Origin: Cololabis saira
Taxonomy: Eukaryota; Chordata; Actinopteri; Beloniformes; Belonidae
Direction: 5' to 3'
Assembly (NCBI RefSeq): GCF_033807715.1
Contig: NC_084609.1
Coordinates: 35,894,613 to 35,958,612, forward strand
DNA length: 64,000 nucleotides
Below are positions 124 to 57,000 of this stretch, piece after piece. A model generated the notes under the pieces. It ran no database searches and was not told the DNA's origin. It saw only the letters and a program-made list of their open reading frames with translations. Positions within the stretch are counted from its first letter, which is position 1; every line of letters starts with the position of its first letter. The position numbers and the translations under genes were made by a program.

Positions 124-363
124 TAGGGCTGAACGATTAATTGCATTTGCGATAATATCGCGATAAGGAATGGGCGATATTTTACCGTTCACGATGTACC
201 ATCAAAAAAATTCCCCACGGTAAGAATTTGTCATCTTGCGGTAAAAATGATAAATTCCCGTTGATGATGTTTTTGTGTAAAGCCGGATTTTTGGTTCTGC
301 GTTAAATCGACGCAGAGCCTACGGCGTAGGTTACGCGGCGATGCAACGTACGGTGCGCGTGCG

Positions 364-410
<47 letters not shown>

Positions 411-1446
411 ATTCCCGTTGATACGTGTTTGTGTAACAAACATGGCGGATCTGAGTCATTCCAGTTTTGCAGTACAGGTGGAATCATTTAATTGGTTTTT
501 ATTAATTAAATTTAATTGGTGTAGTTTAGTAGCATTTAGTATCTTTTAGAGCAGTGTTTTGGGGCTCCAAAGACTGAATGTGGTGATAGATTTATAGTTA
601 AAAAGTGGAGTTGAATTGGTATTTTTTTTTATCGTAATTTTTATCGTTATTGGGATAAATGCCAGAAATGATTGTGATACATTTTTTAGTCCATACTGCT
701 CATCCCTAATCGTGATGTGATAAAATGAGATTTTCTAACCGCAAAGGCTGTGATTTTTCAACACCTAAATCTACCATGGCCTCGGTGTTGGGGCTCGGCC
801 GTGTGGGGCTTTCCTCCGCATCTCGCGCTGGGAGCGGGCGGGGAGGAAATATATGAGCGCGAAGTCGGCGTGGCGAGGAGCACGAGCCGGGTGCCGGTGG
901 ACCGTGCAGTCGCGCTGTGAGCTGAACCTGCAGCTCATCAGGAGGAGAGGTTAAAGGGCTGCCAGTTGTTCATTGCTGGTTTGTTTTGTTAACTCTATGA
1001 GCTTTCTTGGTTTGTTTGCTGGTGGTTTTTTTCTCCCTGTGATTTTTGAGTTTCTTGTGAAGAAGTTCTGAGTTTCCTGTGAGGAAGGTTTTTTTGTTCC
1101 CAGTAGGAGTTTTTGTGTGTTTTTCTATTAAACTACGCATCATTTTGGCTAAAGTTTAACCCGGTTTGGTGTTGTGCGATTGGGTTCAGAGAACGACCCA
1201 TAACACTCGTGTGTACAGACGTGTGTAGACGTGTTAAAGAGGTGAAGCCACAGATTTGTTTTCTTTATTGTTGTAATCTGTGCTTTAAATAAATCTGACA
1301 TTGTTTATTATAAAACAGACTGATTTATTGCTTGTGTAGTTTAAAAATACATGAGAACAGGACCTTGAAAAAATAATCGCATATTAAATTGCAATATTGA
1401 GGAAAAAAATCGCAATTAGATTATTTTCAAAAATCGTTCAGCTATA
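124..1446. mobile_element. hAT-like DNA element with nested MITE
   Basis: The left end TAGGGCTGAACGATT is matched by an inverted right end AATCGTTCAGCTATA at about 1432-1446. Flanks CCTGGCGC (116-123) and CCTGGCCT (1447-1454) agree at 6 of 8 bases, as expected for a decayed 8-bp hAT target duplication. The interior has no transposase ORF, so it is non-autonomous. It contains the MITE at 165-708. Confidence 0.6.
165..708. mobile_element. hAT-type MITE (GGGATGGGCG family), copy 1, with GAAA run
   Basis: Ends are AAGGAATGGGCGATAT and CTGCTCATCCCTA. Flanks ATCGCGAT (157-164) and ATCGTGAT (709-716) match at 7 of 8 bases. A (GAAA)n run sits inside at 364-411, at the position where other copies in this window carry longer GAAA/GGAA arrays. 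Same family as 27081-27924, 32782-36834, 38579-39189 and 39877-40837. Confidence 0.75.
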
Positions 1447-14194: not shown

Positions 14195-16545
14195 GGATGA
14201 ATGGACGGACGGACGGATGGATGGATGGATGGATGGATGGATGGACGGACGTATGGCCAGCCACCGAAACCGGAGAGAATGAGGGACGGCACCAGCAGGG
14301 GAAAAATTTATGGGGAACTTTTCCCCTCTTTCCTTCCCTCCTTCCTTCTGTCTTTCCTTCTTGGTGCTTGTATTTATCTGTTTTTCAAGTTTTTTCATTT
14401 CTATCATGGCCTCTGATTTTTCTGACAGAGACTGGAGCCTGATGTCTATGCAGACACCCCCGAGGAGGAGGATGATGAGGACGGAGGATGATGGAGGATA
14501 GATGGACGCATTGACGGATGGATGGATGATTGGATGGATGGATGGATAATTGGATGGATGGATGATTGGATGGATGGATGGATAATTGGATGGATGGATG
14601 ATTGGTGGATGGATGGATGGACTGATGGATGGATGGATGGATGGATAAATGAATGGATGGATGGATGGCGGACAGACATATGGACGCATTGACGGATGGA
14701 TGATTGGATGGATGGATGGATGATTGGTGGATGGATGGATGGATGGAAGGATGGATAATTGGATGGATCGATGGACGGATGGATGGATGGATGGATGATT
14801 GGTGGATGGATGGATGGACTGATGGATGGATGGATGGATGATGGATGGATGGATGGATGAATGGATGGATGATTGGTGGATGGATGGATGGACTGATGGA
14901 TGGATGGATGGATGGATGATTGGTGGATGGATGGATGGACTGATGGATGGATGGATGGATGGATGATTGGATGGATGGATGAATGGATGATTGGTGGATG
15001 GATGGATGGACTGATGGATGGATGGATGGATGGATGATTGGATGGATGGATGAATGGATGATTGGATGGATGGACGATTGGTGGATGGATGATGGATGGA
15101 TGATTGGATGGATGGATGGATGATTGGATGGATGGATGGATGGATGATTGGTGGATGGATGGATGGACTGATGGATGGATGGATGGATGATGGATGGATG
15201 GATGGATGGATGGATGGATGATTGGTGGATGGATGGATGGACTGATGGATGGATGGATGGATGGATGATTGGATGGATGGATGAATGGATGATTGGATGG
15301 ATGGACGATTGGTGGATGGATGATGGATGGATGATTGGATGGATGGATGGATGATTGGATGGATGGATGGATTGATGAATGGATGGATGGATGGATGGAC
15401 GATGGATGGATGGATGGATGGACAAAAAGATGGACGAATGGATGGATGGATGGAAGGACGGATGGCTGGACACATTGAGGGATGGATGGATGATTGGATG
15501 GATGGATGGATTGATGAATGGATGGATGGATTGATGAATGGATGGATGGATGGATGGAAGGACGGATGGCTGGACACATTGAGGGATGGATGGATGGATG
15601 GATGGATGGAAGGACGGATGGATGGATGGAAGGATGGATGGATGGATGGAAGGACGGATGGATGGATGGATGGATGGTTGGATGAGAGATGGATGGATGG
15701 ATGGACACATTGACGGATGGATGGATGATTCGATGATTGGATGGATGGATAATTGGATGGATGGGTGGATGGATGGACAAAAAGATGGACGAATGCATGG
15801 ATGGATTGAAGGACGGATGGATGGACACATTGAGGGATGGATGGATGATTGGATGGATGGAAGGATGGATGGATGGAAGGACGGATGGGTGGATGGATGG
15901 ATGGTTGGATGAGAGATGGGTGGATGGATGGATGGATGGTTGGATGAGAGATGGATGGATGGTTGGATGAGAGATGGGTGGATGGATGGATGGATGGTTG
16001 GATGAGAGATGGATGGATGGTTGGATGAGAGATGGATGGATGGATGGTTGGATGAGAGATGGATGGATGGATGGTTGGATGAGAGATGGATGGATGGTTG
16101 GATGAGAGATGGATGGATGGATGGACACATTGACGGATGGATGGATGATTCGATGATTGGATGAATGGATGATTGGATGGATGGATGGGTGGATGGTTGG
16201 ATGAGAGATGGATGGATGATTGGTGGATGGATGGTTGGATGAGAGATGGATGGATGATTGGTGGATGGATGGTTGGATGAGAGATGGATGGATGATTGGT
16301 GGATGGATGGTTGGATGAGAGATGGATGGATGATTGGTGGATGGATGGATGGATGATTGGATGAATGGATGATTGGATGGATGGATGGGTGGATGGTTGG
16401 ATGAGAGATGGATGGATGATTGGTGGATGGATGGTTGGATGAGAGATGGATGGATGATTGGTGGATGGATGGATGGATGGATGGTTGGATGAGAGATGGA
16501 TGGATGATTGGTGGATGGATGGATGGATGGATGGATGGATGGCCA
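14195..16545. repeat. (GGAT)n-based satellite, about 2.3 kb in two blocks
   Basis: 14195-14250 and 14498-16545 consist of GGAT/GGAC tetranucleotides broken by variant phrases such as GGTTGGATGAGAGA and GATTGGTGGATGG, which recur in clusters (15900-16500). Stop-free frames of up to about 800 residues run through it (HPSI repeats on the minus strand) because the repeat rarely forms stops; they are not genes. Confidence 0.95.
14251..14500 (+). repeat. Left copy of a ~260 bp block flanking the satellite
   Basis: Starts GGCCAGCCACCGAAACCGG and contains CATGGCCTCTGATTTTTCTG, CAGACACCCCCGA and GAGGAGGATGATGAGG. The same features in the same order occur at 16541-16810, just upstream of ptpro exon 1. 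Confidence 0.85.
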
Positions 16546-20300: not shown

Positions 20301-22972
20301 CGGTCCCTGTTACCATGGTAACAGGGCCGGCCAAGGGGCGGGGCCACGGGGGCCACGTGGGCGGGGCCTCGTTCAAACCCCATAAAATGAGTCCGATACC
20401 AGATACTTGTCTTGGTTTCATCTCTACTAGTCCTGGTTTCAGATCTACTAGTCCTGGTTTCAGCTCTACTAGTCCTGGTTTCAGATGTCGTTTCAGCATC
20501 AACTCTTGAAATGAGAATGTTTGGACAGATTTGATCAGAATAAATGTAAAGGATGTTGATGTTAAACTAACAGTGCTAACAGTCACTACGTTTACATGCA
20601 GTCAAAATTCGAGTTATTGCTAATAATCCGGTTACTGAAACATTCGGAATAATGTGTTTCCATGCGTGAGTAAACAGGGTTATCCCTGTATACATGGTAA
20701 TTAATCATTTGGGAAATCTCCATCAAACCAGCGACGCACGGAGAACATCATGACGCAATTCCCGTCATTTCCGCTTCTTCTTCCTTTATCCAAATCCACA
20801 ACTACAACAATAACAGCAGCACGGCGGATAATGTTTTCTTTCTCGGCCCTGTAGTTCGCCTTTTCAGCGTCTTCCAGCGGTGCTTGATCTGGCCTGGCGT
20901 TCGTACAAATCCTGCTTCGCGCAACTTTTCGCTCACTTTTTTGTAAATCTCGCTATCCCGGTACTTTCTACCGTCTACAAATGCCAATATGTTCATATTG
21001 TAGCGACCCTGATATGGGAGAGTTATGAAGTGGGGGAGATCAGCCTGAATTCTCTCGTCTCTCTGCCTGTCACAGGACTGCATGTGATGTCATGAAGGGT
21101 GCCGGTGGTGGGCAGATTGAGCCCCTAGTTCCTTCTTCAGGGGTCTTAATTGAAGTTGTTGTGGTATTAACCTGGGAAGTGCGAGTTCTGGTCTGCTTGT
21201 GCTCTTTGTTTTTGGCTGTAATCCTGTTCAATAACTTCCTGGCAATAAACTGGCAAGTGGAAGCGACGAGCCGTCTCCGCCTGGCCTGTGAATCGTTACA
21301 ATATCTTTCATTACATTTATGAAGTGATTAGTCTCCTCCTCACTCCAAAAGTGTGGCGTGGTCTTGCGTTTCGCCGTGTCTATAAGAACTTCCTGGACTC
21401 AAAAGACCAAGATTCCCTGTGAAAAGAGCATGCGCAGAAACAAATTTATGTTCCTTTTGATGGGGATATCCCGTTAGGCGTTTACATGACCAAATATTCG
21501 GGTTATAAGAGGAGTAACCCAGGGGTCATATTCCGGTTTTAAAAACCGGAATGTGAGCAAATTCCGGTTATTCAAAGGGGTTATTGGTGTTTACATGGCC
21601 GTACAAAACCGGGTTATTGCTAATATTCCGGTTTTAAAAGGGTTATTGATGCATGGAAATGCAGTGTGTGATTGACGCAGGGTGGCGTGTCTCCAGACCT
21701 GTTTGTTGTCCTCATTTCCAACATGGCGGCGTGCAGCAAGACGACGGAGAGTCTTCTACGTCGGGGTCCCGTCGTAGTGACAGCCGGTTACTGGTGTTGT
21801 CTTGATGACCCACGAGAGTGTAGTTGGGGGTTATAGACTCCAGATGGAGGCACGGTTGGTGGGAGGCTCCTTAACGTCAAACATATGTAGTTTAATTTGT
21901 ATTTCATGTGAATAAAAACTTCTGGTGAACAAGTTAATGACAGGATGAAGAAATGCAGCTGAACAGCTAAGACTCAGGTGAAGGAGGTTTCCATGATGAC
22001 GAGGTCTGAGTGGCGGTTGGAGGTTTCCATGGTGACGAGGTCTGAGTGGCGGTTGGAGGTTTCCATGGTGACGAGGTCCGAGTGGCGGTTGGAGGTTTCC
22101 ATGGTGACGAGGTCCGAGTGGAGGTTGGAGGTTTCCATGGTGACGAGGTCTGAGTGACGGTTGGAGGTTTCCATGGTGACGAGGTCCGAGTGGCGGTTGG
22201 AGGTTTCCATGGTGACGAGGTCCGAGTGGAGGTTGGAGGTTTCCATGGTGACGAGGTCTGAGTGACGGTTGGAGGTTTCCATGGTGACGAGGTCCGAGTG
22301 GCGGTTGGAGGTTTCCATGGTGACGAGGTCCGAGTGGAGGTTGGAGGTTTCCATGGTGACGAGGTCTGAGTGACGGTTGGAGGTTTCCATGGTGACGAGG
22401 TCCGAGTGGCGGTTGGAGGTTTCCATGGTGACGAGGTCCGAGTGGAGGTTGGAGGTTTCCATGGTGACGAGGTCTGAGTGACGGTTGGAGGTTTCCATGG
22501 TGACGAGGTCCGAGTGGCGGTTGGAGGTTTCCATGGTGACGAGGTCCGAGTGGAGGTTGGAGGTTTCCATGGTGACGAGGTCTGAGTGACGGTTGGAGGT
22601 TTCCATGGTGACGAGGTCCGAGTGGCGGTTGGAGGTTTCCATGGTGACGAGGTCCGAGTGGAGGTTGGAGGTTTCCATGGTGACGAGGTCTGAGTGACGG
22701 TTGGAGGTTTCCATGGTGACGAGGTCCGAGTGGCGGTTGGAGGTTTCCATGGTGACGAGGTCTGAGTGGCGGTTGGAGGTTTCCATGGTGAGCTAAAGGC
22801 TAACAGTTTATCAACTAAAACTTTCCTGTAGTTGCTATTCAGAGAAATAGAAGTCCAAAGAAATTTCTTTGAGCACAACCAGAACATTCCTGCACAGATA
22901 AATGTCTTAAATTTGTACGGCATTTTCCAGCTGTAGTCCTGCAGCCCCCAAGCGCTTTACACTGCAGACATC

Positions 22973-26000: not shown

Positions 26001-29000
26001 TTCAGCTCGGCGCGGCTCGTCGCGGCTCTACCCGTTTTGTCCCCGTTTGTTTTTCCACAGCCAGGGGAGAAGTGGGCAGGTTGGGGTGAAGCTGCTGTGA
26101 CGTACTCGATTGCGCAACCGCTTTGTTCGTGTCGGCGCTGATCAAAAATCAGCTGGAGCCGCGGGTGGCTGAGAGTAAAACAGCCCGTCTACATCCCTTT
26201 TTTAATTCTCTCGTCAGCCACCAGGTTTATGAACATCTGCACCTCAGAGTTGGATCACCAAACAGATGTTTTGCGCTTTATAATAAAATTGCAGCGAGTC
26301 GCTCTCGTGCTGACTCCCGCTTCCTGATTCAAACGTCTGACGGCCCCGCCCCCCGACCAATCAGTGGCGCGGAGGGTGGTGACGTCAGAAATAGTCCCGG
26401 CTCAGCCCGGTTAGAACCTCGCCAGAATGGTTACAGAAATAGTATCGGCTTGGAGCGGCTCTACCCGTCTCAGCCCCTAGTGGAAAAGCGCAAGACGCGG
26501 CCGTGGTGGGTAGAACCGAGCTGAGTAGATACTAGTGCAAAAGCGCCATAAAAGACAGGTTGTCTTCAGACCTATGATGCTTTGCTGCATCCAGATTCGA
26601 AAATGTCTCTTGCCGTTGGTCTTAATAATTCCGCCCCCTCCGCTTACGTAAGCGGTTCTTTGGTCTAGACCAGGAAAGAGTTGGTGCTACCTTGGAACCG
26701 GTTTTCTGGCCCCGGAGCCAGTTCTTTGTCAGTGGAAACAGAAATCCTGGTTCAGAACCAGCCTGGAAACAGTTTGGTGGAAAAGGGGTAAAAAAAAGAG
26801 CTCTGCGTCGGGGGCGGGTCACCGACCAGTCAGGGCCCCCCCAACCCTTCAGCTCCAGGGGAGCCTTCAAAAACAAAAATAGCATCTTTGTAACGAAGGA
26901 GGTAATTAAGGAGAGCAGCAGCCCCCCCCCACCCGCTGCTTTCTTTACCTAATGAAGGTAAACAAAGAGACAGCAGCTCCTCCTTCCTCTCAAAACAAAA
27001 GCTGCCCCCACGCCAGCCACGCCCCCCAGGGAGGAGGAGGTGAGACTGGAGCTGATCAGAACCCAGACGCCGGTCCGGAGTAGGGATGGGTGGTATGGAC
27101 TAATAATTTCTGGCATTTATCCCGATAACGATAAAAATGACGATAAAAAAAAATACCAATTCAACTCCACCTTTTTAACTATAAATCTATCACCACATTC
27201 AGTCTTTGGAGCCCCCAAAACACTGCTCTAAAAGATACTAAATACTACTAAACTACACCAATTAAATTGAATTGATAAAAAACAATTACATTAGTACACC
27301 TGTACTGCAAAACTGTAATGACTCAAATGAAACAAGTTTGAAATGTAAGAACAGATTCAACATTTATTCAAACTGTATGGCTTAAACAGTGGGATAATTT
27401 AAGCAAAATAAGCAAACGTACCATTGTCCTTCAAGTTTTCTTAGCTTATAAAATCACAAAGTAGAAAAAAATACAACCTGATAAATAAAGAAACAGGACA
27501 AATAAATAAAAGTTCACTGAAAATAAAATCCAATAAGTGATGACCTCTTCTAATATAAATAAAATGTACAAATTAACCTGTGGTTGGAACATGCCACAAA
27601 TTAGATACTATTGCATTTTTTTTTCGTAATAGTCAAACGTTATATCAAAATGTAACAACCATTTCCTTCTGTTTTTGCAGACTCTGCACACAATAGATGA
27701 TGTTTGCTCCTCGTCTCTTTTTAAATCCAAACCAGTTCCAGATAATGGAGCTGGAGCCTCGTTTAACAACGAGCTCCTCGCTCTCAGATCCGCCTTCCAC
27801 CATGTTTGTTACACAAAAACGTCAACAACGGGAATTTATCGTTTTTACCGCGAGATGACAAATTCTTACCGTGGGGAATTTGTTTTTTGGTATATCGTGA
27901 ACGGTAGAGTATCGCCCATTCCTAGTCCGTAGTAATCAGATCTCCGGGGGTTCTGGCTCCTCTTCGTTGTCGCGCGTCGGCTGCCTTGTCCTGACCAACG
28001 TAAACCGTCCACAGGTGCATTCTGGGACGTCTCCTGTTGTTTTCCTGAGGTGACCTCCCAGACCGGATCTCCGTATTACAAAACTACTTTATTTGATATT
28101 TACGTCCCTAAATGGTTGAATTCCTCCACATAGAGCGGTTGATTGGCATCTTTAAGGACTCGTCACAGTGAGTGCAATCCAAGTTCCCTGGTCCAGATCC
28201 CGGGTCCAGGTCCCCTCAGTAGACTTGTAGTCAAAACCGCCTAAACCGAGACCAAGACCAGGACCAGTTCAGCTCCAGACCAAACCTAGTAATGTCCCGA
28301 TCCTGCGTGATTGTAGAACATCATCCTGGTTCAGCTAGTTTCCATATGAGCTTGTTTTCAACTGCAGCACAATAACACAGAGAAGTGGATGATAATGTTG
28401 AACTCACTATAAATGTTTCCATCCATCAGCTGAGATCAGATATGTGTGGCGACTGCACTACCGCTATTTCTACACTATTGGAGGATTGACTCCAGAGCTT
28501 TTAAGGATTGACTCTAGGGCTGGGGATCGATTCAAATGTCAAGAATCGATTCGATTCCGATTCTTAATATTCAGAATAGATTATCATGATTCGATTCGAT
28601 CCGATTCGATATTGGCTTAGTGAGAATTATGGAATTATGCAGGTAATAATTACGGATCTTTTTGTCCTTGTTTTAATCGGGACTATTTATTATTTATTTT
28701 TCCTTTTTTCTTTTTTTACTGGTTCTTTGTTGTTACATATATATTTTTTTTGTGTTTTGTGTTTGCTTCTTTTTTGGGTGGAAATGCTAGAAAGCATTTG
28801 TTATAGAAAGTGTAAATAATGTGAAGGTTAAAGGGTAGGCATTTATAAGCTCAGAGCTTCAGCCTATTCCTTTTCAATCCAAATGATTATACACGACATG
28901 TTATGAATGAGTGTACCATATTGAGCACATGATCAAAATAAATAAATAAATAGTGTTATTTAAAATATTTTTTGAGCTGTTGCCTGAATTATATGACTGT

Positions 29001-32000: not shown

Positions 32001-32868
32001 CATTCAGGCTCAGCCCCCCCACACCGTCTCCATGGCGACCCGGGAATCAGACACATATAATGAGCTCCACCTCCCAACCCCAGCATGGCCCTGCTTTCAT
32101 CTCTGTTGCCATGGTGACGGCCGAGGAACCTTGAGCCGAGAGAATCGAGATCCTTCTCTCCTTTCTCTTCTCGCTCAGGGTGACGAGTGACGGCTGTAAC
32201 GCGGCGCCGCCTCGCCAAGAGCCGTCCGCCATCCGTCAGCTGATCCCAGCAGAAAAACATCCAGTAATATGTCACTTCCTGGCTGCTGGTTCCCCGCCCG
32301 AACCATCTGGGGGGGGGGGGTTGTAGAACGTGTGAATGTGTTTGAATGATGTATGAATGTTGGTGGTGGTCGGAGGGGCCGTTTGGCGCGATATGGCAGC
32401 CACGCTTCCGTCAGTCTGCTTATCATCACCAGTGAGGATGTGTATAGATCAATAATGATCTCTGTAAAGCGCTCTGGGTGCTTTGAAGGGCGCTATATAA
32501 AACCAAGTCATTATTATTAGAAACCTGCAGGTTCCAGCTCGTTGAGAAACGGTGGCGTTGCCTTCAGGCCGAACCGTAAAATCTGCCGCCGACTTTCATC
32601 TGGCCGCATCTTCAGATGAATAAACAACTGTCACGACCAGGATCAGGAAATTACTAGGTCTTGGTCTTGATACTCTCTGGTTTTCGTCTCGGTTTAGGGG
32701 GTCTTGACTACAAGTCTATCTGAACCAGACTAGTATGCTAGCCCCGGTGGTAGACCCGGGAGGGCGTACTGGGGTCCTGACTAGGGATGGGCGATATTTA
32801 CCGTTCACGATATACCGTCAAAAAAATTCCCCACGGAAGGAAGGAAGGAAGGAAGGAAATGAGCCTGA

Positions 32869-32928
<60 letters not shown>

Positions 32929-32939
32929 AATGAGCCTGA

Positions 32940-32983
<44 letters not shown>

Positions 32984-33056
32984 AATGAGCCAGAAAGAAA
33001 GAAAGAAAGAAAGAAATGAGCCTGAAAGAAAGAAAGAAAGAAAGAAATGAGCCTGA

Positions 33057-33096
<40 letters not shown>

Positions 33097-33169
33097 AATG
33101 AGCCAGAAAGAAAGAAAGAAAGAAATGAGCCAGAAAGAAAGAAAGAAAGAAAGAAAGAAATGAGCCTGA

Positions 33170-33217
<48 letters not shown>

Positions 33218-33298
33218 AATGAGCCTGAAAGAAAGAAAGAAAGAAAGAAAGAAAGAAATGAGCCTGAAAGAAAGAAAGAAAGAAAGAAATGAGCCTGA

Positions 33299-33330
<32 letters not shown>

Positions 33331-33389
33331 AAAAAATGAGCCTGAAAGAAAGAAAGAAAGAAAGAAAGAAAGAAAAAAATAAATGAGCC

Positions 33390-33424
<35 letters not shown>

Positions 33425-33435
33425 AATGAGCCTGA

Positions 33436-33471
<36 letters not shown>

Positions 33472-33565
33472 AAAATATGAGCCTGAAAGAAAGAAAGAAA
33501 GAAAGAAAGAAATTAGCCTGAAAGAAAGAAAGAAAGAAAGAAAGAAAGAAAAAAATAAATGAGCC

Positions 33566-33600
<35 letters not shown>

Positions 33601-33611
33601 AATGAGCCTGA

Positions 33612-33643
<32 letters not shown>

Positions 33644-33763
33644 AAAATATGAGCCTGAAAGAAAGAAAGAAGGAAAGAAAGAAATGAGCTCGAAAGAAAG
33701 AAAGAAAGAATGAAAGAAATGAGCCTGAAAGAAAGAAAGAAAGAAAGAAAAATATGAGCCTGA

Positions 33764-33795
<32 letters not shown>

Positions 33796-33853
33796 AAAAA
33801 ATGAGCCTGAAAGAAAGAAAGAAAGAAAGAAAGGACAAAAGAAATTAGCCTGA

Positions 33854-33885
<32 letters not shown>

Positions 33886-33943
33886 AAAAAATGAGCCTGA
33901 AAGAAAGAAAGAAAGAAAGAAAGGACAAAAGAAATTAGCCTGA

Positions 33944-33991
<48 letters not shown>

Positions 33992-34107
33992 AAAAAATGA
34001 GCCTGAAAGAAAGAAAGAAAGAAATGAGCCTGAAAGAAAGAAAGAAAGAAAGAAAGAAAGAAATGAGCCTGAAAGAAAGAAAGAAAGAAAGAAAGAAATG
34101 AGCCTGA

Positions 34108-34139
<32 letters not shown>

Positions 34140-34167
34140 AATGAGTCTGAAAGAAAGAAAGAAAGAC

Positions 34168-34214
<47 letters not shown>

Positions 34215-34229
34215 AAAATATGAGCCTGA

Positions 34230-34265
<36 letters not shown>

Positions 34266-34319
34266 AATTAGCCTGAAAGAAAGAAAGAAAGAAAGAAAGA
34301 AAGAAAAAAATGAGCCTGA

Positions 34320-34359
<40 letters not shown>

Positions 34360-34413
34360 AATGAGCCTGACAGAAAGAAAGAAAGAAAGAAAGAAAGAAA
34401 AATATGAGCCTGA

Positions 34414-34449
<36 letters not shown>

Positions 34450-34460
34450 AATTAGCCTGA

Positions 34461-34496
<36 letters not shown>

Positions 34497-34511
34497 AAAA
34501 ATAAATGAGCC

Positions 34512-34542
<31 letters not shown>

Positions 34543-34557
34543 AAAATATGAGCCTGA

Positions 34558-34593
<36 letters not shown>

Positions 34594-34604
34594 AATTAGC
34601 CTGA

Positions 34605-34636
<32 letters not shown>

Positions 34637-34651
34637 AAAAATAAATGAGCC

Positions 34652-34686
<35 letters not shown>

Positions 34687-34697
34687 AATGAGCCTGC

Positions 34698-34741
<44 letters not shown>

Positions 34742-34752
34742 AATTAGCCTGA

Positions 34753-34784
<32 letters not shown>

Positions 34785-34799
34785 AAAAAATGAGCCTGA

Positions 34800-34839
<40 letters not shown>

Positions 34840-34921
34840 AATGAGCCTGAAAGAAAGAAAGAAAGAAAGAAAGAAAGACAGAAAGAAAGAAAGAAAGAAA
34901 GAAAGAAAAATATGAGCCTGA

Positions 34922-34957
<36 letters not shown>

Positions 34958-34968
34958 AATTAGCCTGA

Positions 34969-35000
<32 letters not shown>

Positions 35001-35015
35001 AAAAATAAATGAGCC

Positions 35016-35046
<31 letters not shown>

Positions 35047-35057
35047 AATGAGCCTGC

Positions 35058-35097
<40 letters not shown>

Positions 35098-35190
35098 AAA
35101 ATATGAGCCTGAAAGAAAGAAAGAAGGAAAGAAAGAAATGAGCTCGAAAGAAAGAAAGAAAGAAAGAAAGAATGAAAGAAATGAGCCTGA

Positions 35191-35226
<36 letters not shown>

Positions 35227-35241
35227 AAAATATGAGCCTGA

Positions 35242-35277
<36 letters not shown>

Positions 35278-35288
35278 AATGAGCCTGA

Positions 35289-35320
<32 letters not shown>

Positions 35321-35348
35321 AATGAGTCTGAAAGAAAGAAAGAAAGAC

Positions 35349-35391
<43 letters not shown>

Positions 35392-35406
35392 AAAATATGA
35401 GCCTGA

Positions 35407-35438
<32 letters not shown>

Positions 35439-35492
35439 AATTAGCCTGAAAGAAAGAAAGAAAGAAAGAAAGAAAGAAAAAAATGAGCCTGA

Positions 35493-35532
<40 letters not shown>

Positions 35533-35544
35533 AATGAGCCTGAC

Positions 35545-35575
<31 letters not shown>

Positions 35576-35590
35576 AAAATATGAGCCTGA

Positions 35591-35626
<36 letters not shown>

Positions 35627-35637
35627 AATTAGCCTGA

Positions 35638-35673
<36 letters not shown>

Positions 35674-35688
35674 AAAAATAAATGAGCC

Positions 35689-35719
<31 letters not shown>

Positions 35720-35734
35720 AAAATATGAGCCTGA

Positions 35735-35770
<36 letters not shown>

Positions 35771-35781
35771 AATTAGCCTGA

Positions 35782-35817
<36 letters not shown>

Positions 35818-35832
35818 AAAAATAAATGAGCC

Positions 35833-35871
<39 letters not shown>

Positions 35872-35882
35872 AATGAGCCTGC

Positions 35883-35918
<36 letters not shown>

Positions 35919-35929
35919 AATTAGCCTGA

Positions 35930-35961
<32 letters not shown>

Positions 35962-35976
35962 AAAAAATGAGCCTGA

Positions 35977-36012
<36 letters not shown>

Positions 36013-36094
36013 AATGAGCCTGAAAGAAAGAAAGAAAGAAAGAAAGAAAGACAGAAAGAAAGAAAGAAAGAAAGAAAGAAAAATATGAGCCTGA

Positions 36095-36130
<36 letters not shown>

Positions 36131-36141
36131 AATTAGCCTGA

Positions 36142-36173
<32 letters not shown>

Positions 36174-36188
36174 AAAAATAAATGAGCC

Positions 36189-36219
<31 letters not shown>

Positions 36220-36230
36220 AATGAGCCTGC

Positions 36231-36266
<36 letters not shown>

Positions 36267-36359
36267 AAAATATGAGCCTGAAAGAAAGAAAGAAGGAAAG
36301 AAAGAAATGAGCTCGAAAGAAAGAAAGAAAGAAAGAAAGAATGAAAGAAATGAGCCTGA

Positions 36360-36395
<36 letters not shown>

Positions 36396-36410
36396 AAAAT
36401 ATGAGCCTGA

Positions 36411-36446
<36 letters not shown>

Positions 36447-36461
36447 AAAAAATGAGCCTGA

Positions 36462-36493
<32 letters not shown>

Positions 36494-36504
36494 AATGAGC
36501 CTCA

Positions 36505-36552
<48 letters not shown>

Positions 36553-36610
36553 AAAAAATGAGCCTGAAAGAAAGAAAGAAAGAAAGAAAGGACAAAAGAA
36601 ATTAGCCTGA

Positions 36611-36650
<40 letters not shown>

Positions 36651-36665
36651 AAAAAATGAGCCTGA

Positions 36666-36699
<34 letters not shown>

Positions 36700-38820
36700 T
36701 GAGCCAGAAAGAAAGAAAGAAAGATAAATTAATTCCCGTTGATGACGTTTTTGTATTGGTATTTTTTTTATCGTTATCGGGATAAATGCCAGAAATTATC
36801 GTGATACATTTTTAGTCCATACCGCCCATCCCTAGTCCTGACAGGTTGACCACTGGTTTTTAAAAGATGCTTCCTGTTCTGTTGTCCGTCGCCAGAGGTC
36901 TCGTCCATCGGGACACTTTGGTGACGTGGTTCTGTTGGCGTCATCGGGCAGGAAGCAGCAGAGATTAAGAACCTCCAGATCCGAGACCGCGGTTCAGGTC
37001 CAGGTCTGGAGGAGATCAGGTACCTCAGGTGGATGTTCCCTGGTCCGGATCCTGTATCTGTCTGAGATGACGATAGTTGGGCCAGAAGAGTCTGTTCCCT
37101 CAGCTCTGATCTCCAGCTCTGCTAGTTTAAAGGGGACCTATTATGGCATCTAATACCTATTTTAAACAGGCCTTGAATGTCTTAAAAACAAGCTTTTTGA
37201 TTTTTTTTGCTAAATAAATTAGAAATTCAGCCTCTGAGCCATGTTTGTTTGTTTGTTTGTATGTTTTATTTAGGATCCCCATTAGCATTAGCAACAGCAT
37301 TAGCTATTCTTCCTGGGGTCCGACATACACACAACACACAAACTAACACTTAATACATAACAGATATACATTATACATGACAAACTAAACAATAATAGAC
37401 ACAACTCCCTTAATCACAATCTATACAGAGGAGAACTAAATCACCATCGTTCTCAGACATAAATACATAGAAATGAAATCAAATAAAACACATTCATAAC
37501 CAATACCTGCCTGAAATGACCTTATCTAGAATTATTTGACCACTTTTCACCTTTATTATGATAGGTTTTACACTACCTATAATTCTATTCAACCTTCACT
37601 TTGTTCCTTCTAAATGACAAATCATCATTCATTAAATTTTAAAAGATATTCTTTCAACTCAAACTTAAACCAATCTTTGCTACCTACATGAGAAATATGA
37701 ACTGGTATAGAGTTCCAGCCAACCATGGCTCTGTAAAAAAATGTTCTCTGAATCAAACCTGTTCTCACTCTCGGTAGAATGAACCTCCTTTCTGATGTGA
37801 TTCTTGTACTGTAACCATGGTGAGTAAAATGATAATAGAATCTGTCATACAGTTGTTTCGGAGATCGTGTCACCAGGATATTTCTCAGAAAATTTAACAT
37901 AGTATACGTAGACCTTTGTCTTATAGATAACCAGCCTAGATTCGTATGCATGCTGGACACATTAGACCTATAAGGACACAATAGAGCACAACGTGCAGCT
38001 TTATTTTGTGCCACTTGTAATTTCTTTACATTTTTAACTAAAGCATTTGACCAAACTACAAAACAATATCCCAGTTGCGACAAAACCAAAGCATTCAAAA
38101 CCTGTCTCCTAACATTTAGAGATAAACATTTTAAGATTCTTCTCACTAGTGACATGCCTCTTCCCATTTCGCAAACGACAGAATCAGTTTGTTTAGACCA
38201 TGACAATAAAGTATAAATGTCTTTAGCATCCCAGTCTCTAACCTCATTATCTATGCAGGATTCTGAGCGGGCGGGGCTATGATAATGAGGCTCTCTGCTG
38301 ATTGGCTGCCTGAATGACGTGATACACCGCTACGAAAAATTGGCGGAAGCTCCGGCCGGCGGAGTTAGTTGTGGGCGTGGTTTCACGCATCGTTACGTAA
38401 CAACGGGAGCAGAATCTTATTGGCTCGTAGATCCACATCACACTGGACGGCTCATCCGGGCGGCTGTACAGACACTGCAGAATTTGGTTGCTTTCCTCCT
38501 TCTCTGAGTTGGCAGGCTGAGGGGAGAACACTTTATATATGTTAAAACAAGAGAAAACCTGTTTTTCATAATAGGTCCTAGGAATGGGCGATATTTTACC
38601 GTTCACGATATACGGTCAAAAAATTCCCCACGGTAAGAATTTGTCATCTCACGGTAAAAACGATAAAAGGAAGGAAGGAAGGAAGGAAAAAGGAATGGAG
38701 AAAAGAGGAAGGGAAGAAGGAACGTGACAAATTCCTATGTGTGTTACACAAATGGCAAATAAAGTAATCTGAATCTGAAGGAAGGAAGGAAGGACGGAAG
38801 GAAGAAAGATATGAGCTCGA

Positions 38821-38862
<42 letters not shown>

Positions 38863-41800
38863 TGAGCCTGAAAGAAAGAAAGAAAGAAGGAAAGAGAGAA
38901 AGAAATGAGCCAGAAAGAACGAGGAGCGAGGAGCTTGAGTCATTACAGTTTTACAGGTGTAACTCATTTAATTGGTTTTTATTAATTCAATTTAATTGGT
39001 GTAGTTTAGTAGCATTTAGTATCTTTTAGAGCAGTGTTTTGGGGGCTCCAAAGACTGAATGTGGTGATAGATTTATAGTTACAAAGGTGGAGTTTAATTG
39101 GTATTTTTTCTATCGTCATTTTTATCGTTATCGAGATAAATGCCAGAAATTATTGTGATACATTTTTTAGTCCATACCGCCCATCCCTAATAGGTCCCCT
39201 CGAAAACAAGCTCCCTCTGCAGGGAGGCGGGACCCTCCCTCACAGGTGTGAGGAGACGGACTCGGGTCGCTCCTCCAGATCCAACAGGGCCAGTTGGGGT
39301 TCCAGGGACCACATTCACGCAGTTAAAGGTTCAGTCCTACAGACCTCCTGCAGGCCTGAAGTCGGGTTCTGACCGAACGGAGGAGGGATTGTAAAGCAGA
39401 AGCTGGAAGAAAATGCACCGTCCTTATGGGGTGTGGGCGGAAATCCCATCATGCCGCGGTGCAGCACATGTTTTATGACTCTCGGATTAGAAATGTGGGT
39501 CAGGATGGATAATCTGCCGCTGGATGGAAGACGAGCTGAAAGTGACTCGTCTTTGGAGTCCCAGGGGATCGTAGGAAGCTTCTGAGCTGCAGCTCTGTCG
39601 AATGAATGAATGAATGAATGAATGAATTAATTAATTAATTAATTAATTAATTAATTAATGAAATTTAGCAGCTACACCTGTCCTGGAGTCCTAGCTAGCT
39701 GCCTGCCTCACTTCAGGCCCCGTTTACCTCAGCTGACTTCTGCTCACCTAAGATGCTGATTAACATTAATTTCTGTTCATTCTGATTGAATCTGTCCAAA
39801 CGTGCTGATTTCTAGAGTCGCGACCAAAACAACGTCTGATGCGGTAAAACTGGAGGTTCATGTTCATGATGACAGCTAGGAATGGGCGATATTTTACCGT
39901 TCACGATATACCGTCAAAAAAATTCCCCACGGTAAGAATTTGCCATCTCGCGGTAAAAACGATAAATTCCCGTTGATGACGTTTTTGTGTAAAGATGATT
40001 TATGGTTCTGTGTTAAATCGACGCACAACGTACGGGAAGGAAGGAAGGAAGGAAGGAAGGAAAGAAATGAGAAAGAAAGAAATGAGAAAGAAAGAAAAAA
40101 GGATAAATTCCCGTTGATGACGTTTTTGTGTAACAAACATGGCGGATCTGAGAGCGAGGAGTCATTCCAGTTTTGCAGTACAGGTGGACAATTAATTTGT
40201 TTTTATCAATTCAATTTAATTGGTGTAGTTTAGTAGCATTTAGTATCTTTTAGAGCAGTGTTTTGGGGGCTCCAAAGACTGAATGTGGTGATAGATTTAT
40301 AGTTACAAAGGTGGAATTGAATTGGTATTTTTTTTATCGTAGCAGCTCGTACCTGGAACACTATACCCGTACAACTAAGAAACATCACATCTCTTCATTC
40401 ATTCTCAAAAAACATAAAACAGTGGTTACTAGACAATCAAACATGCCGTCATAATCTGGTATAGGGCTCAGTTTATTGTTTTTATACCTGTTTGTGCTTA
40501 TGTGCTTTTATGTGAGCTAATGTGTTTGTGTGCTATAATTCTTTTATGTTGTCTGTCATTATTCGGAGTGTCATGGTTTTACTAATTGTTTGTACTCTGT
40601 GTTTTAAGGTTTTAGTGTGTGTTTTTACATATGCCATCAACCTGCCAGGGACTGCAGATGTAAATTAGCCTGTATGGCTAAATCTGGCACATTTACGTGA
40701 TGAACTCATGTCAATCAATGTGCGTTGTCCCTTTTAAATAAATAAATAAATAAAATAAATCGTCATTTTTATCGTTAGCGGGATAAATGCCAGAAATTAT
40801 CGTGATACATTTTTTTAGTCCATACCGCCCATCCCTAATGACAGCGCTGAATGACATGAAATGTTTTTCTAGAAAAGGTTCTTGTGTTTCAGAAAACCTT
40901 CCGTCCGTCAGGAATAGAGCGAATGTTCATGACGTCACAGATGCGACTTCACAGCGGGTTTCGCCCACTGAGTGTCAGAAAGACTGAGTGTCAGAAAGAC
41001 TGAGTGTCAGAAAGACTGAGTGGCAGAAAGACTGAGTGGCAGAAAGACTGAGTGGCAGAAAGACTGAGTGTCAGAAAGACTGAGTGGCAGAAAGACTGAG
41101 TGGCAGAAAGACTGAGTGGCAGAAAGACTGAGTGGCAGAAAGACTGAGTGGCAGAAAGACTGAGTGGCAGAAAGACTGAGTGTCAGAAAGACTGAGTGGC
41201 AGAAAGACTGAGTGGCAGAAAGACTGAGTGGCAGAAAGACTGAGTGTCAGAAAGACTGAGTGGCAGAAAGACTGAGTGGCAGAAAGACTGAGTGTCAGAA
41301 AGACTGAGTGTCAGAAAGACTGAGTGTCAGAAAGACTGAGTGGCAGAAAGACTGAGTGTCAGAAAGACTGAGTGTCAGAAAGACTGAGTGTCAGAAAGAC
41401 TGAGTGGCAGAAAGACTGAGTGGCAGAAAGACTGAGTGGCAGAAAGACTGAGTGGCAGAAAGACTGAGTGGCAGCGTAAACTTTCAGTTTTAGCAACTGT
41501 AAAACATCTGGTGGCAGGTTTAATGAAACAGACTCACCTGCTGCGACTCCTCTGCAGTCTGGACGGAGGCCAAAGACGCCGCGCCGCCTCCGTGTTTACC
41601 TCCACCTCAGTCTCTTCTTCTTCTGAACGTGAAGCGAGACGTGGGAAATAAACTCAGTCAGATTCCCTCCACTGAGACTAAAATAAAGAGAGGTGGTGGA
41701 TCATCATGAAGGCACCGGGGTGTCATGCTTGTTGCCTGGCAACAGCTGTGCTGATGATGTCACTTCCAGTGTTAATGTGTAATGTAGAGGAACTCTCTCA

Positions 41801-50800: not shown

Positions 50801-53800
50801 TAGTTTTCCATTTATTTCACGGACCACCTGCAATACCGCCACGGTCCACCAAAGGGCCACGGACCGCCGGTTGACAATCCCTGATCTAAAGAGATAAAAC
50901 AACGTTTTTAGTGATTGTTTGATTTCCAGCTACAGTGCTTGAAGGTGGAGCCTGTGATTGGTCGAGGGGTTTGCTGGTCCAGGAGGTTTAAGGTCTTATT
51001 GGCCAGAGCTGACTCCACCCACTCTGGTCGATCCAGCCATGGACGAAGAAGTCGGGTGGAAAATGCTATGTTAGCCTGGCTTAGCTAACTAGCTTTACGT
51101 TATGTTTATTCTGATTAAATCTTTCAGACATCAAGTTTAATTAAGCTCCACTCGCTAGGTGCAGTGGGCTAGCTGCGGTGCAGTCGACTTCCAGCATAAA
51201 GCTAGCTGTGGTTGGCTAACAGCTGTGGGCTAGCAGTGGAGGGCTAACAGCTGTGGGCTAGCAGCTTAGCGGTAGGAGAGGTCTGAGCTAACCTGCTGAG
51301 CATCATCAGCTGCTTCTGTTGGTTCCTCCAGGAAAACTCCACCAGTGACGTCATCAGCCACCTGACGCCCGGCGCCCAGTACCGGGTCGTCGTCTACCAC
51401 ACCAACGGGCCGCTGATCAGCCCGCCGTCGGAGCCCGTCATCATCGACATCGGTGAGCACTTACAGGGCGCGTAGGTGGGAGGGGCTGCAGGCTCCTACC
51501 TGACCTGGGGGTTAGTTAGTTAGTTAGTTAGTTTTATTTTGGTCCATTAGTCAATCAAAACATGCCTCACAGTAAAGCTGGATATATGAATAAATGAACC
51601 AAAAAAGGTTTAGACAGAAGCCGTAGCTTATATAATGTCTACCCTTTTTTACAATACATCACATCACAACAAATCAAAATAAAAAGTATTACAGAGATCA
51701 ATTACAACAAAAGCAAGTTAGAGGATTTACAGGAGAAGCTGCTCTTGGTCATAGTTTATATTTATCCATTGCCCTAAGTTTAATTAGAGTTTTTTAGAGT
51801 TACTCTATTTCATTTCGGCCTTTAATAAAAACTATCCAGTTAAATTGCTCCATCCGGATAGAGTGAATTTGGTTGTGGTTGTTTCAGATGTTCTTGTCCA
51901 GTTTTGTTCTTACATCCGTTCCCTCAGATTCCTGCAACTAAACTTGGATGTACATTCCAATAAAGGTTAGGATAAATGATAACATGAACATGAAGTTTGA
52001 CTTTTTGCACCATTACAATACTTATAGGCAACTAGTCATCATATCTCCTGCTCTCTGAAACACATGTTAATGCTTAATAGTACACATATATGCTTTATTT
52101 ATTTATTTATTTATTTATTTAAAATGGGACAGTGCATATTAATGAACATTCACATGTAAATATGCCAGATTATAGCCTAAGGCTAATTTCCATCTGTAGT
52201 CCCCTGGCAGGTTGATGGTAACATGAACATAAACGAATCAGAAAAAACAAAGACAGAAACACATAATACCACAACACAACACGAAACTTAGTACAAAGAA
52301 TAAAAACAGGAGACCAACGACCAGTGTGTAAACGAGTCTAAACAGTAGAGTACAGTTATAGTGGATATATGTTGTGTTTATATTTTAAAGTGCTTAGTGC
52401 GAGGAGATAAATTATATTGCACGGGAACCAAAATGGAGTATACATATTGCACAAAACCCGTCGTTAATATAAAGTGCATAATCAAATTGCACATTGCTCT
52501 ACCGTATCTCCACTAATTGTATTTAATATATACATATGTATATATACACATATATATACACACATACGCATGTACAGTACGTACACACACACATATACAC
52601 ACATATATATACATACACCTACACACACATATCCATACCCATGTCTACATACCCCAGACAAGCCCAATCTGAATTATGCATGATCACAGGTTTGGTTGCC
52701 TCTTAACCACATCTTCAAGTGTTTCTTAAATGTGGTGAAATTAGAGCACTCCCTTACCGAGGGTGGGATGCTATTCCAAAGTGCACACCCTTTTATAAGA
52801 TAGCTTCTTTAATATATTTGCATTATACTAAGATACATTCATTTTCAATGGCTTTTGTCCTTAATGGCTTTTTTCCCCCTTACATTACTTTTACTTTTAT
52901 ACTTTAAGTAGTTTTGAAACCAGTACTTTTATACTTTTACTTGAGTAAAAAACTTGAGTTTATACTTCAACTTCTACAGGAGTATTTTTAAACTCTAGTA
53001 TCTATACTTCTACCTGAGTAATGAATGTGAATACTGAAGACACCTCTGGTCAGAGCCCACAGGTGTGGAGGAGTTAACGGTGTACCCGCTGGGCCCGACG
53101 GTCATCATCCTGAGCTGGCGGCGTCCGTACCGCGTGTCGTTCCGGAAGTACGTCCTGCAGACCTTCTTCTTCAACCCCGTCACGCTGGCGTCGGAGTGGA
53201 CCACCTACTACGAGATCGCCGCCACCGCCTCCGTCATCACCTCCGTGGTGAGGCCTGTGCGCCGGGCGGCGGCTAGCCGCGGCGCCATGACGCCGCACCG
53301 CCGTGGCCCCGCACCCCCGTCCCTGTGGCCCCGCCCCCTGCTCACCGCCTCTCTCTTTCTCCTCAGAGAGTCACCGACCTGCTGCCCGCCTGGTACTACA
53401 GCTTCCGCGTTTCCATGGTGACGTGGGGCGACCCGCCGCTCAGCTGCTGCGACGGCTCCACCGTTGGCTTCGTGACAGGTGAGGCCCGGCGCCGGTTCTG
53501 GTCAGAGACTTCGTCTACGGCAGGGGGAGCCAACCAGTCAGAGGCTAAGAGCCATAATTGGTTCCTGAGTTACTGCAAAGAGCCACATCGTACACATCAA
53601 CTACCCATGATCCCTCACTCCCTGCTCTCTCTGAGACATAAAAATACCATTAGAAAACGGAAAGGTGAAATCCTACAATCTGATCGGTTGTTAACTGTGG
53701 TATAACGAGCATATACCACGGCTTCTATTCTAACGCCTTATCACAGCATATCATTCCGCTTCAAGGCAGCAACAACAGAGCCGCATGACACCAGGCAAAG

Positions 53801-54012: not shown

Positions 54013-57000
54013 TTATTTATTTATTTTTTTGAAAAGAAGACTGTTATTAACAGCCTTTTACCTCATTTTAAATTTAATTTTAAATGTATTTATTTAATTT
54101 AATTGGAATTCTTACACACAACATTTACAGCTTTATTAGTGTTTTCAAAATTTACAAAATTAAATTTTTTAAATTTAAACTGATTTTAGTGTCAGAAAAG
54201 TATCTTTATCTGTCGTTTGTTAGCAGATATTTTTCTATATTATATTTCTCGGCCCCTGCCTGTGATTGGTTCTATGGTTGTCCTCTGGGGGGGTCTCTGG
54301 TTCTAACCCGGTTCTGCCCCCCCCAGCTCCAGAGGCCCCCCACATCTCCTCGGTGGACTACGTCCAGGGCCTGCTGCTGGTGGTCTGGGACTACGGCGAG
54401 CTGTTCAGCGACCTGACGCACTCCAGGATCCTGCACTGGCAGGTGACGGCGGTCGGCCGGAGGAGAACCGACAAGAGCTACTCCATCAACGTGAGTCCAA
54501 CCGCCCGGGTCTGGGTCAGTGTTGGACCGGTACTGGACCCTCCCAGAACCCTATGAAGATAGATTTGTGTCATAATTATTACATTGAAAAAAAGATTGCT
54601 TCAATCAAAAAATATATTTTCAATCAAAGAAAAAAAGTGTTTGGATGCAAAAAAAAAAATGGAGACTCAAAAAAGGTGAGAAAGGGACAGGGAGTAACAG
54701 TTTTGTTGAATAATTTAGAATATAAATTAAAAAAAAAAGAGGACCAGAACCATCTAGTTCAGGGCAACAACGGAACATGTGGTATAACGTAGCAGGAAGA
54801 ATGTTGCATCTGTCACACAGGGGTTTTGATAGGGCAGTCTTACAATAATGTAAGCGGTGCAACACTTTGAACTGGATAATACTGTAGCATAAACATAGGA
54901 AAGAAGAGTTTACACAATCTAAGGCTGCATCCCAAATGTCAAAGCCAAGCTCTTCCTCCCATCCATGCTTAATAATAGTTAAAGAGGGCATGTTTACTGA
55001 AATTATGTAATCATAAACTTGTGTGTGTAGGTGACCAGGAACCTGATGAGGGCCAGCCTCCCCCTCCCCCCTGGAGACATCTACAACCTGACGGTGACGG
55101 CCTGTACAGAACGGAGCAGGAACATGTCAACACCCAACATCATCAAGCTGGGTGAGACACACACACACATATATGGAGGGAATGTTCAGGACGTCACAGA
55201 TGAGACTTCACAGCGGGTTTAGTCCACTGAGTGGCAGAAAGACTGAGTGTCAGAAAGACTGAGTGTCAGAAAGACTGAGTGTCAGAAAGACTGAGTGTCA
55301 GAAAGACTGAGTGTCAGAAAGACTGAGTGTCAGAAAGACTGAGTGTCAGCGTAAACTTTCAGTTTGAGCAACTGGAAAACATCTAAAATGGGAAAGAGCT
55401 GTTGTGCGATCGACTGTACTCATAGATTTAGCAAGAAATGGGAGTTATTGTTTTACAGACTGACAAAAAATAAGCTTAAGAGAGACAAATGGGTCGCTGC
55501 AATTCGGAGAAACAACTGGATTCCAGGCACCGAAACGTGGATTTGTGGTTCCCATTTTGTATCAGGTAATGTTGGATTTTTGGGTAGCTAACGTTAAACG
55601 GTCAAATCATAAAGTTCGGTGTCCTCATTACTTTAACTTCTGCAACAAATCCTGCCTTGAAGTAGGACCAAGCGTCAAGACTTTTGTTTGCCTTAAAGGG
55701 GGCAAATCACTGAAGTTGCTGTTCATATGGGGAGGGGAAAAATATAATACAATAAAATAAGGGGCAAAAAAAAACAAAGCTTTGTGTATTTCCCCGGCGT
55801 AGAAATTAAGTACAAATAAAGACCAGGAAACTGGATTCGTGGCCAAATATTAATGTCCATGGACCACTGGTTCTTGGGATACGGGTCACTGTCAAGTCCA
55901 ACTGCCTTTAATTTAGTAACTACTAATAACTAGCCATTTTTGCCACTCAGTGCCAGTAAGGGGGCGTGATCCAGTGGGAAAGTGACATCAATGCAGACCC
56001 TCTATACACACACATATTCACACACAAACACACATATTCACACACACAGTAGAAGAAGACGCTGCAGTTCCTCCTCTGACCACCAGAGGAACTAAAGACT
56101 CTTCACCTCCGTGTTAATAAACGCTTCACAGCTGGAACCAACAACGGTCCGGTTCTGCAAAACTCAGCAGAACTCAGCATGACTCAGTAAAACTCAGTTA
56201 AACTCAGGCCACGTTTACACATAGCCGGGTATTTACAAAAACAGATATTTCCCCCTCTACGTTTTGAAAAATACCATCATTTACACAAACCTGCATAAAT
56301 ATCTGTTAAGGTGCTATGAGCAGCCACACCTGCAGGGGGCAGTGTAACGAGAAGATAAAGTCATGCTAGCCAATCAGAATCCTGGAAAAAAACATCAACA
56401 AATGACACGAGTAACTTCCAGTTACTTCCAAGATGAACGAGAGTCTTTGGTTTGGAGTGACAGAGAAGTGGAGTTACTTTTAAGTGTGACTTTAGAATAT
56501 AAAACAGGTAAAATACAAGAAAATATTGACGGTGGCCAAACAAATTGTAAACACAGGTCGCACACATGACGCTGGTGACGTTTCTGACGCATAATGTGAC
56601 GTTCTGAAGCTTAACAGCTTGTCCTAACTGCACGCGAGCGTCCGACTATCGTGTCGCACTGTGTGGCATCGGACGCTCTCTGTCCACACTGAACGTGTTA
56701 TGGGCCCCACTTTTTTTGATTGACAGCTGAAACTCGCTTTTTAAAAGGCTGAGTTATGGTTCCACGTTACACCAACGCAGACCCTACGGCGTAGGTTACG
56801 CGGCGACACGCACCAAACTGTGCGCGTCGCTGCGTAACCTACGCCGTCGATTTTACGCATAACCATAAATCAGCCTTTATTCACCGCACTACCCGCCCGT
56901 GCGCTCCTGAAAGAAACTCCTAAAATAACTCCTAAAAGAGTAAAGAGACAAGTAAAAGATGGGTGATTACTTGTAATCTTCCTACGTTTGTACTTTCTTA

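Follow-up and report, generated by a model that had tools for sequence, protein, structure and literature searches.

A 64-kb window of the Cololabis saira genome (C23:35894613-35958612 in a 1.146-Gb assembly of 730 contigs) contains a miniature inverted-repeat transposable element (MITE), here called copy B, whose interior is almost entirely a purine-rich tandem array. The array of copy B is real, little mutated and unusually large, and copy B is one member of a usually array-bearing family. The explanation that best accounts for the data as a whole, to which we assign a probability of roughly 0.85, is that the array is a built-in module of a large hAT-type MITE family, transposing with its carrier, growing separately at each insertion and seeded by a broken palindrome, the seed being the less certain part. 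No finding contradicts the core of this explanation. Origin of the satellite in a single copy is unsupported and local overgrowth in copy B is supported. What makes the family the greater find is that apparent stages of satellite birth stand side by side within it.

The first-pass annotation of this window had described a single hAT-type MITE insertion at 32782..36834, filled almost wholly by a GAAA/TGAGCC array, and had contrasted it with an array-free copy of 844 bp at 27081-27924; these observations were borne out. In copy B the 8-bp target-site duplication GTCCTGAC is intact (8/8), both ends are present (TAGGGATGGGCGATA at 32782 and TACCGCCCATCCCTA at 36834, with 14 of the 15 outermost bases identical between the terminal inverted repeats), and a 3.89-kb array of 83 units lies between arms of 53 and 112 bp (Table 1). 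Each unit consists of TGAGCC or a close variant followed by GAAA repeats, with a mean of 9.1 GAAA per unit. At the left-arm joint, four bases (ACGG) are microhomologous to the seed of another copy in the window (copy D), and the deletion joint in the right arm is common to 11 other elements. The array-free copy (copy A) lies on the minus strand and has a 7/8 duplication.

Copy B belongs to a family of over a thousand copies with an identical right end. The exact 57-bp right end of the MITE had 1,392 matches in the genome and an exact 20-mer of the array unit had 7,326, compared to none for either reversed control. Using the 125-bp right end of copy B, 40 of 912 first-look candidates were scored, and each of these, across the joint with the array, covered no fewer than 123 of the 125 positions at 94% or better. 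Individual copies were sampled from one 14-Mb stretch of one chromosome, from the window and from the seven best matches to the copy B right end. Among the first 25 consecutive right-end matches on C1, 21 contained arrays (median 330 bp; longest at least 1,322 bp, at locus L063), while the four array-free copies comprised an empty site on the minus strand (L010), a nested palindrome (L061), a right-end stub (L055) and a chimera (L060). The first 100 of the 7,326 unit matches fell into 43 loci on C1 (0.57 to 14.78 Mb), and at all 43 MITE sequence bordered the array on one side or both; extrapolation from 43 loci in 100 matches to all 7,326 suggests about 3,000 unit-bearing loci genome-wide. These results show that most sampled copies hold the purine array at one internal site and in one orientation. 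No array lacking both MITE arms was seen among the sampled loci. The left arm was not beside the array in L029, L042, L053 and L067, where arm and array may also have been separated by a later insertion; it lay ~4.3 kb from the array in L018 and beyond the retrieved stretch in L045, and was reduced to TAGGGATGGG in L025, which has a perfect duplication (CATGAAAC).

Target-site duplications of hAT elements are biased towards the pattern nTnnnnAn. The 8-bp duplication was perfect in 36 of the 51 complete elements, and 36 of the 39 on C1 matched at seven or more of the eight positions (the other three at 1, 3 or 4). Among the 36 perfect duplications, T occupied position 2 in 32 and A occupied position 7 in 21, with both present in 19 compared to 2.9 expected from flank composition. 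This bias supports a hAT-type transposase as the probable mobilizer of the family.

Array orientation was identical in 49 of 49 arrays, with GGAA to the left of GAAA in 35, to the right in 2 and a single repeat type in the remaining 12. The uniform orientation and mostly uniform order point to one common seed. Array content differs among copies: one array holds 182 GGAA (L059), another 13 GGAA followed by 49 GAAA (L066), a third TGAGCAA in 18 of its 19 units (L008), and others an AGCA run (L051) or TGAGCGA (L058). For the 27 copies with at least four units each (347 units), the mean unit distance was 1.79 within copies and 3.14 between copies, compared to 2.69 after shuffling (0 of 1,000 shuffles as low), which shows that units resemble others of their own copy more closely than those of other copies. 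An earlier, looser unit definition that mixed in GGAGAG motifs was dropped (4.16 within copies versus a shuffled mean of 4.68, with at least 1 of 200 shuffles as low). Separately, the array at L022:4299-5372 contains two copies of a piece of the MITE right end, ~295 bp apart, possibly through template switching.

The array of copy B is the longest measured in the family and an outlier. Across the 39 complete elements on C1 (one of them array-free), array length had a median of 325 bp and reached at most 1,787 bp, compared to 3,888 bp for copy B by the same rule. The median varies with the joining rule, from 325 bp (gaps of at most 40, 39 elements) or 330 bp for the 38 array-bearing elements to 432 bp with gaps of at most 60 (38 elements), and the count leaves out the incomplete or cut elements L042 (1,613 bp), L045 (>1.2 kb) and L063. 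It had been proposed that array length be plotted against copy age; with flank divergence as a proxy for age, the two were not correlated among the 39 complete C1 elements (Spearman's ρ = 0.075, p = 0.65).

Growth of the copy B array took place at least partly in its own lineage, because it contains both a private unit variant and a tandem duplication of a 24-unit block. All three matches to the private variant (33830..33852) in the assembly fall in copy B, and a second variant has six of its eight genome-wide matches there. The block is repeated at an offset of 1,169 bp (24 units, 1.17 kb), making the longest repeated unit run 24, whereas 2,000 randomizations of the unit order never gave a run above 9. 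Arrays of this kind are difficult to assemble, and the near-coincident pair of blocks (units 29-52 versus 53-76) differs by one substitution, with 40 gap columns, in 1,197 aligned columns, as might be seen if the duplication, or the array length itself, were an assembly artifact. We consider this very unlikely: the two blocks disagree in GAAA number at 9 of their 24 units, unlike an exact assembler duplication, although read error could produce such differences, and the window contains no N bases. Among 11 other long arrays, block repeats were suggestive in L042 alone, where equally long runs arose in 10 of 500 shuffles by unit type and in 5 of 500 by exact unit; the counts were 39 of 500 for L022 and 64 of 500 for L005, and the remaining arrays were at shuffle level.

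Alternatively, the long array may have formed in an older copy, so that copy B transposed with its array already long and the local growth is a late retouch. The flanks of copy B lie 1.7% from the consensus (12 of 51 elements are nearer), and a long array in so young an insertion could be inherited. This history is nonetheless unlikely, given that the private variant is used three times across the copy B array and nowhere else in the assembly, and that most matches to the second variant lie there too. No second locus with the copy B block order was seen in three variant searches, the other arrays with the second or third variants being unread. The first-pass annotation had placed both the expansion and the origin of the satellite inside copy B. 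We retain growth within the copy B lineage, on the private and near-private variants and the block duplication, but find no support for birth of the satellite in this single copy, since arrays sit in 21 of the 25 right-end-sampled copies, all in one orientation and mostly in one internal order.

The seed itself may be traced through copies that differ at the array site. The window holds five copies of this MITE (A to E), and copies C, D and E each carry a short purine array in the region matching the array site of copy B, which makes copy A an empty-site relative and not the parent of copy B. In copies A and L010 the MITE runs uninterrupted through a single TAA at this site (TTTTTGTG-TAA-CAAACATGG in copy A). 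In L061 the TAA is duplicated around a near-perfect hairpin of 142 bases (-71.1 kcal/mol under DNA parameters; the opening letters of the second TAA are counted among the 142), and related palindromes are present elsewhere in the sampled DNA. This 3-bp duplication is reminiscent of Harbinger-type elements. In copy E the left half of the palindrome extends to the loop and is directly followed by a GAAA run and then by a repeat of the 28-31 bases found upstream of the TAA; copy D has the same layout with a shortened left half. Allowing up to 4 differences for palindrome halves and up to 5 for the flank, 63 of the 67 scored elements have arrays, of which 36 retain the left half and 37 have two flank copies. 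The right half was found in none of the 63, and the four array-free elements have at most one flank copy each. The series from empty site, through a nested hairpin between TAA duplications, to a left half with array and repeated flank suggests what the seed was.

Under the mechanism we propose, a nested palindromic MITE at the TAA site would have broken at its hairpin loop, and repair of the break may have brought in the purine repeat and the second copy of the upstream flank, rejoining on an empty-site MITE template; these are the less certain steps. Arrays would then have grown by slippage in 4-bp steps and by amplification of units of ~30-80 bp, with multi-unit blocks gained through unequal exchange or break repair. 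Growth would be separate at each insertion, with transposition spreading the seeds, and copy B would afterwards have lost most of its left seed, with the ACGG microhomology at the joint. That hairpin-loop breakage seeded the array in the hAT MITE, and that transposition turned it into thousands of parallel independent arrays of which empty, intermediate and seeded stages are extant, is a tentative reading that we place a little short of even.

Two other origins of the seed were weighed. It could be the A-rich 3' tail of a retroposed sequence, with the 28-31-bp repeat as target duplication and the half palindrome as body; copies E and D do show the order flank, body, purine tail and repeated flank, and two flank copies occur in the 37 array-bearing elements noted above. 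We regard retroposition as quite unlikely, because the body in L061 is an intact palindrome flanked by TAA duplications and lacks both tail and flank repeat, as expected of a DNA transposon that inserted first. Instead, the MITE may have picked up part of a GGAA tandem repeat that already existed, an origin that is compatible with a broken palindrome and that we consider plausible though short of probable. The locus L026:1-2230 contains a GGAA-rich array of >2 kb that lacks MITE sequence at its one retrieved end and terminates in GGAGAGAGCATGGCAGGAGGAAAGAAGG, which resembles a motif found within several MITE arrays. It is a possible donor or escapee, but it is the single such locus seen, with one end retrieved, and transfer could have run in either direction.

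Several points limit the explanation as a whole. The samples come from the restricted set of regions named above, and a copy with the whole palindrome, as in L061, was seen once. A third copy B variant, TGAGCCTGCAAG, has 36 matches, with four in copy B and clusters of 14 on C3 and 11 on C11; its presence in several other arrays means that not every copy B unit is private and that the same change either recurred or is older. The arrays of L045 and L063 extend past their retrieved stretches, making their lengths lower bounds. Finally, with both the flanks and the block copies of copy B nearly unmutated, growth and insertion are not orderable from one assembly, and, given flanks in this state, the claim that the block was duplicated only after the insertion was dropped.

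Tandem arrays borne by MITEs are already known, including Xstir and miDNA4; what appears to be new here is the history of the seed and how many arrays exist in parallel. As described in the available excerpts, the Tc1/mariner MITE miDNA4 of Xenopus tropicalis carries an internal satellite of variable copy number (Scalvenzi and Pollet 2014; PMC12628747, PMC9659126). In the family described here, too, many dispersed copies contain an array whose copy number varies, and the two are also alike in having internal deletions at microhomology and arrays that may outlive MITE ends; tandem-repeat capture, as proposed for miDNA4, is a candidate likeness. It differs from what those excerpts give for miDNA4 in its hAT-type ends, 8-bp duplications and compound GGAA/GAAA repeat, and in having an identifiable empty site, a nested-palindrome intermediate and differing unit variants per copy. 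Xstir repeats ride on the Xmix MITE of Xenopus (Hikosaka and Kawahara 2004; PMC12628747, PMC9659126) and, according to the same partial sources, are thought to derive from internal MITE sequence, whereas nothing corresponding to the purine array is present in copies A and L010, which are array-free. In Lepidoptera, (GTCY)n microsatellites hitchhike in MITEs (Coates 2011; PMC9659126, in excerpt); the arrays described here can reach kilobases and, in copy B, include a block duplication. Oyster Helitron/Helentron satellites form short arrays inside scattered mobile elements, some missing one element end (PMC8268682, in part); those carriers are rolling-circle elements, whereas the carrier here is of the cut-and-paste hAT type. 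A minisatellite in a bacterial MITE is also on record (PMC4596501), and PMC2872659 belongs to the same literature. Judged by titles and the starts of abstracts, with subscription journals mostly outside the search, no published report of this element or of a palindrome-seeded MITE satellite was found, and the terminal sequence TAGGGATGGGCG had no literature match.

Accounts of how satellites start and grow usually rely on arrays that are already complete. The present genome provides a replicated set, comprising copies with no array, a nested hairpin, a seed, arrays from tens of bases to ~3.9 kb and differing unit variants, in which growth, homogenization and loss of carrier ends are measurable copy by copy, with each copy's own flanks as an age gauge.

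Table 1. Positions of MITE copies and of the parts of copy B within the 64-kb window.
Feature	Position	Strand	Details
Copy E	165..708	+	nested palindrome kept to loop, (GAAA)n at 364-411, then repeated flank; duplication 7/8
Copy A, empty site	27081..27924	-	844 bp; no nested repeat, no array; duplication 7/8 (GTCCGGAG/GTCCGTAG)
Copy B, left target-site duplication GTCCTGAC	32774..32781	.	
Copy B, left arm including terminal inverted repeat	32782..32834	+	53 bp; cut at CCCCACGG
Copy B, array	32835..36722	+	short (GGAA)n, then (GAAA)n/TGAGCC; 3,888 bp, 83 units
Copy B, private unit variant	33830..33852	+	further copies start at 33920 and 36587
Copy B, first copy of 24-unit block	34064..35232	+	units 28-51
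Copy B, second copy of 24-unit block	35233..36401	+	units 52-75; 24/24 unit types in same order; 9 units differ in GAAA number
Copy B, right arm	36723..36834	+	112 bp: second ATAAATT..CCCGTTGATGACGTTTTTGT flank copy, deletion joint GT/ATTGG, right terminal inverted repeat
Copy B, right target-site duplication GTCCTGAC	36835..36842	.	8/8 match to left duplication
Copy C, short array	38579..39189	+	three TGAGC units; duplication ATAGGTCC 8/8; left joint differs
Copy D, seed-type	39877..40837	+	shortened left half of nested palindrome, GGAA/GAAATGAG array ~40035-40097, repeated 31-bp flank; duplication ATGACAGC 8/8

Other repeats were observed in the window. Copy D contains an insertion of ~419 bp at 40340-40758, part of which resembles 52097-52218. 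A 16-bp repeat, ACTGAGTGKCAGAAAG, is present in ~32 copies at 40967-41474 and ~8 copies at 55226-55349; the two loci share flanks (54 bp at 89% and 35 bp at 94%), as a second mobile or duplicated repeat with a variable array might. The latter locus directly precedes a THAP-domain reading frame at 55388, and the one Pfam match among eight translated stretches of the window was to THAP, at 55388-55567. A possible second hAT-like MITE lies at 57140-58267, with ends TAGTGCTGGGCGGTA and a flanking duplication that is not clear. A 2-kb GGAT-rich array occupies 14486-16542, with flanks ~76% alike. The window also holds minisatellites with 36-bp (21983-22791) and 23-bp (59907-60853) units, indicating that the region is generally rich in tandem repeats.

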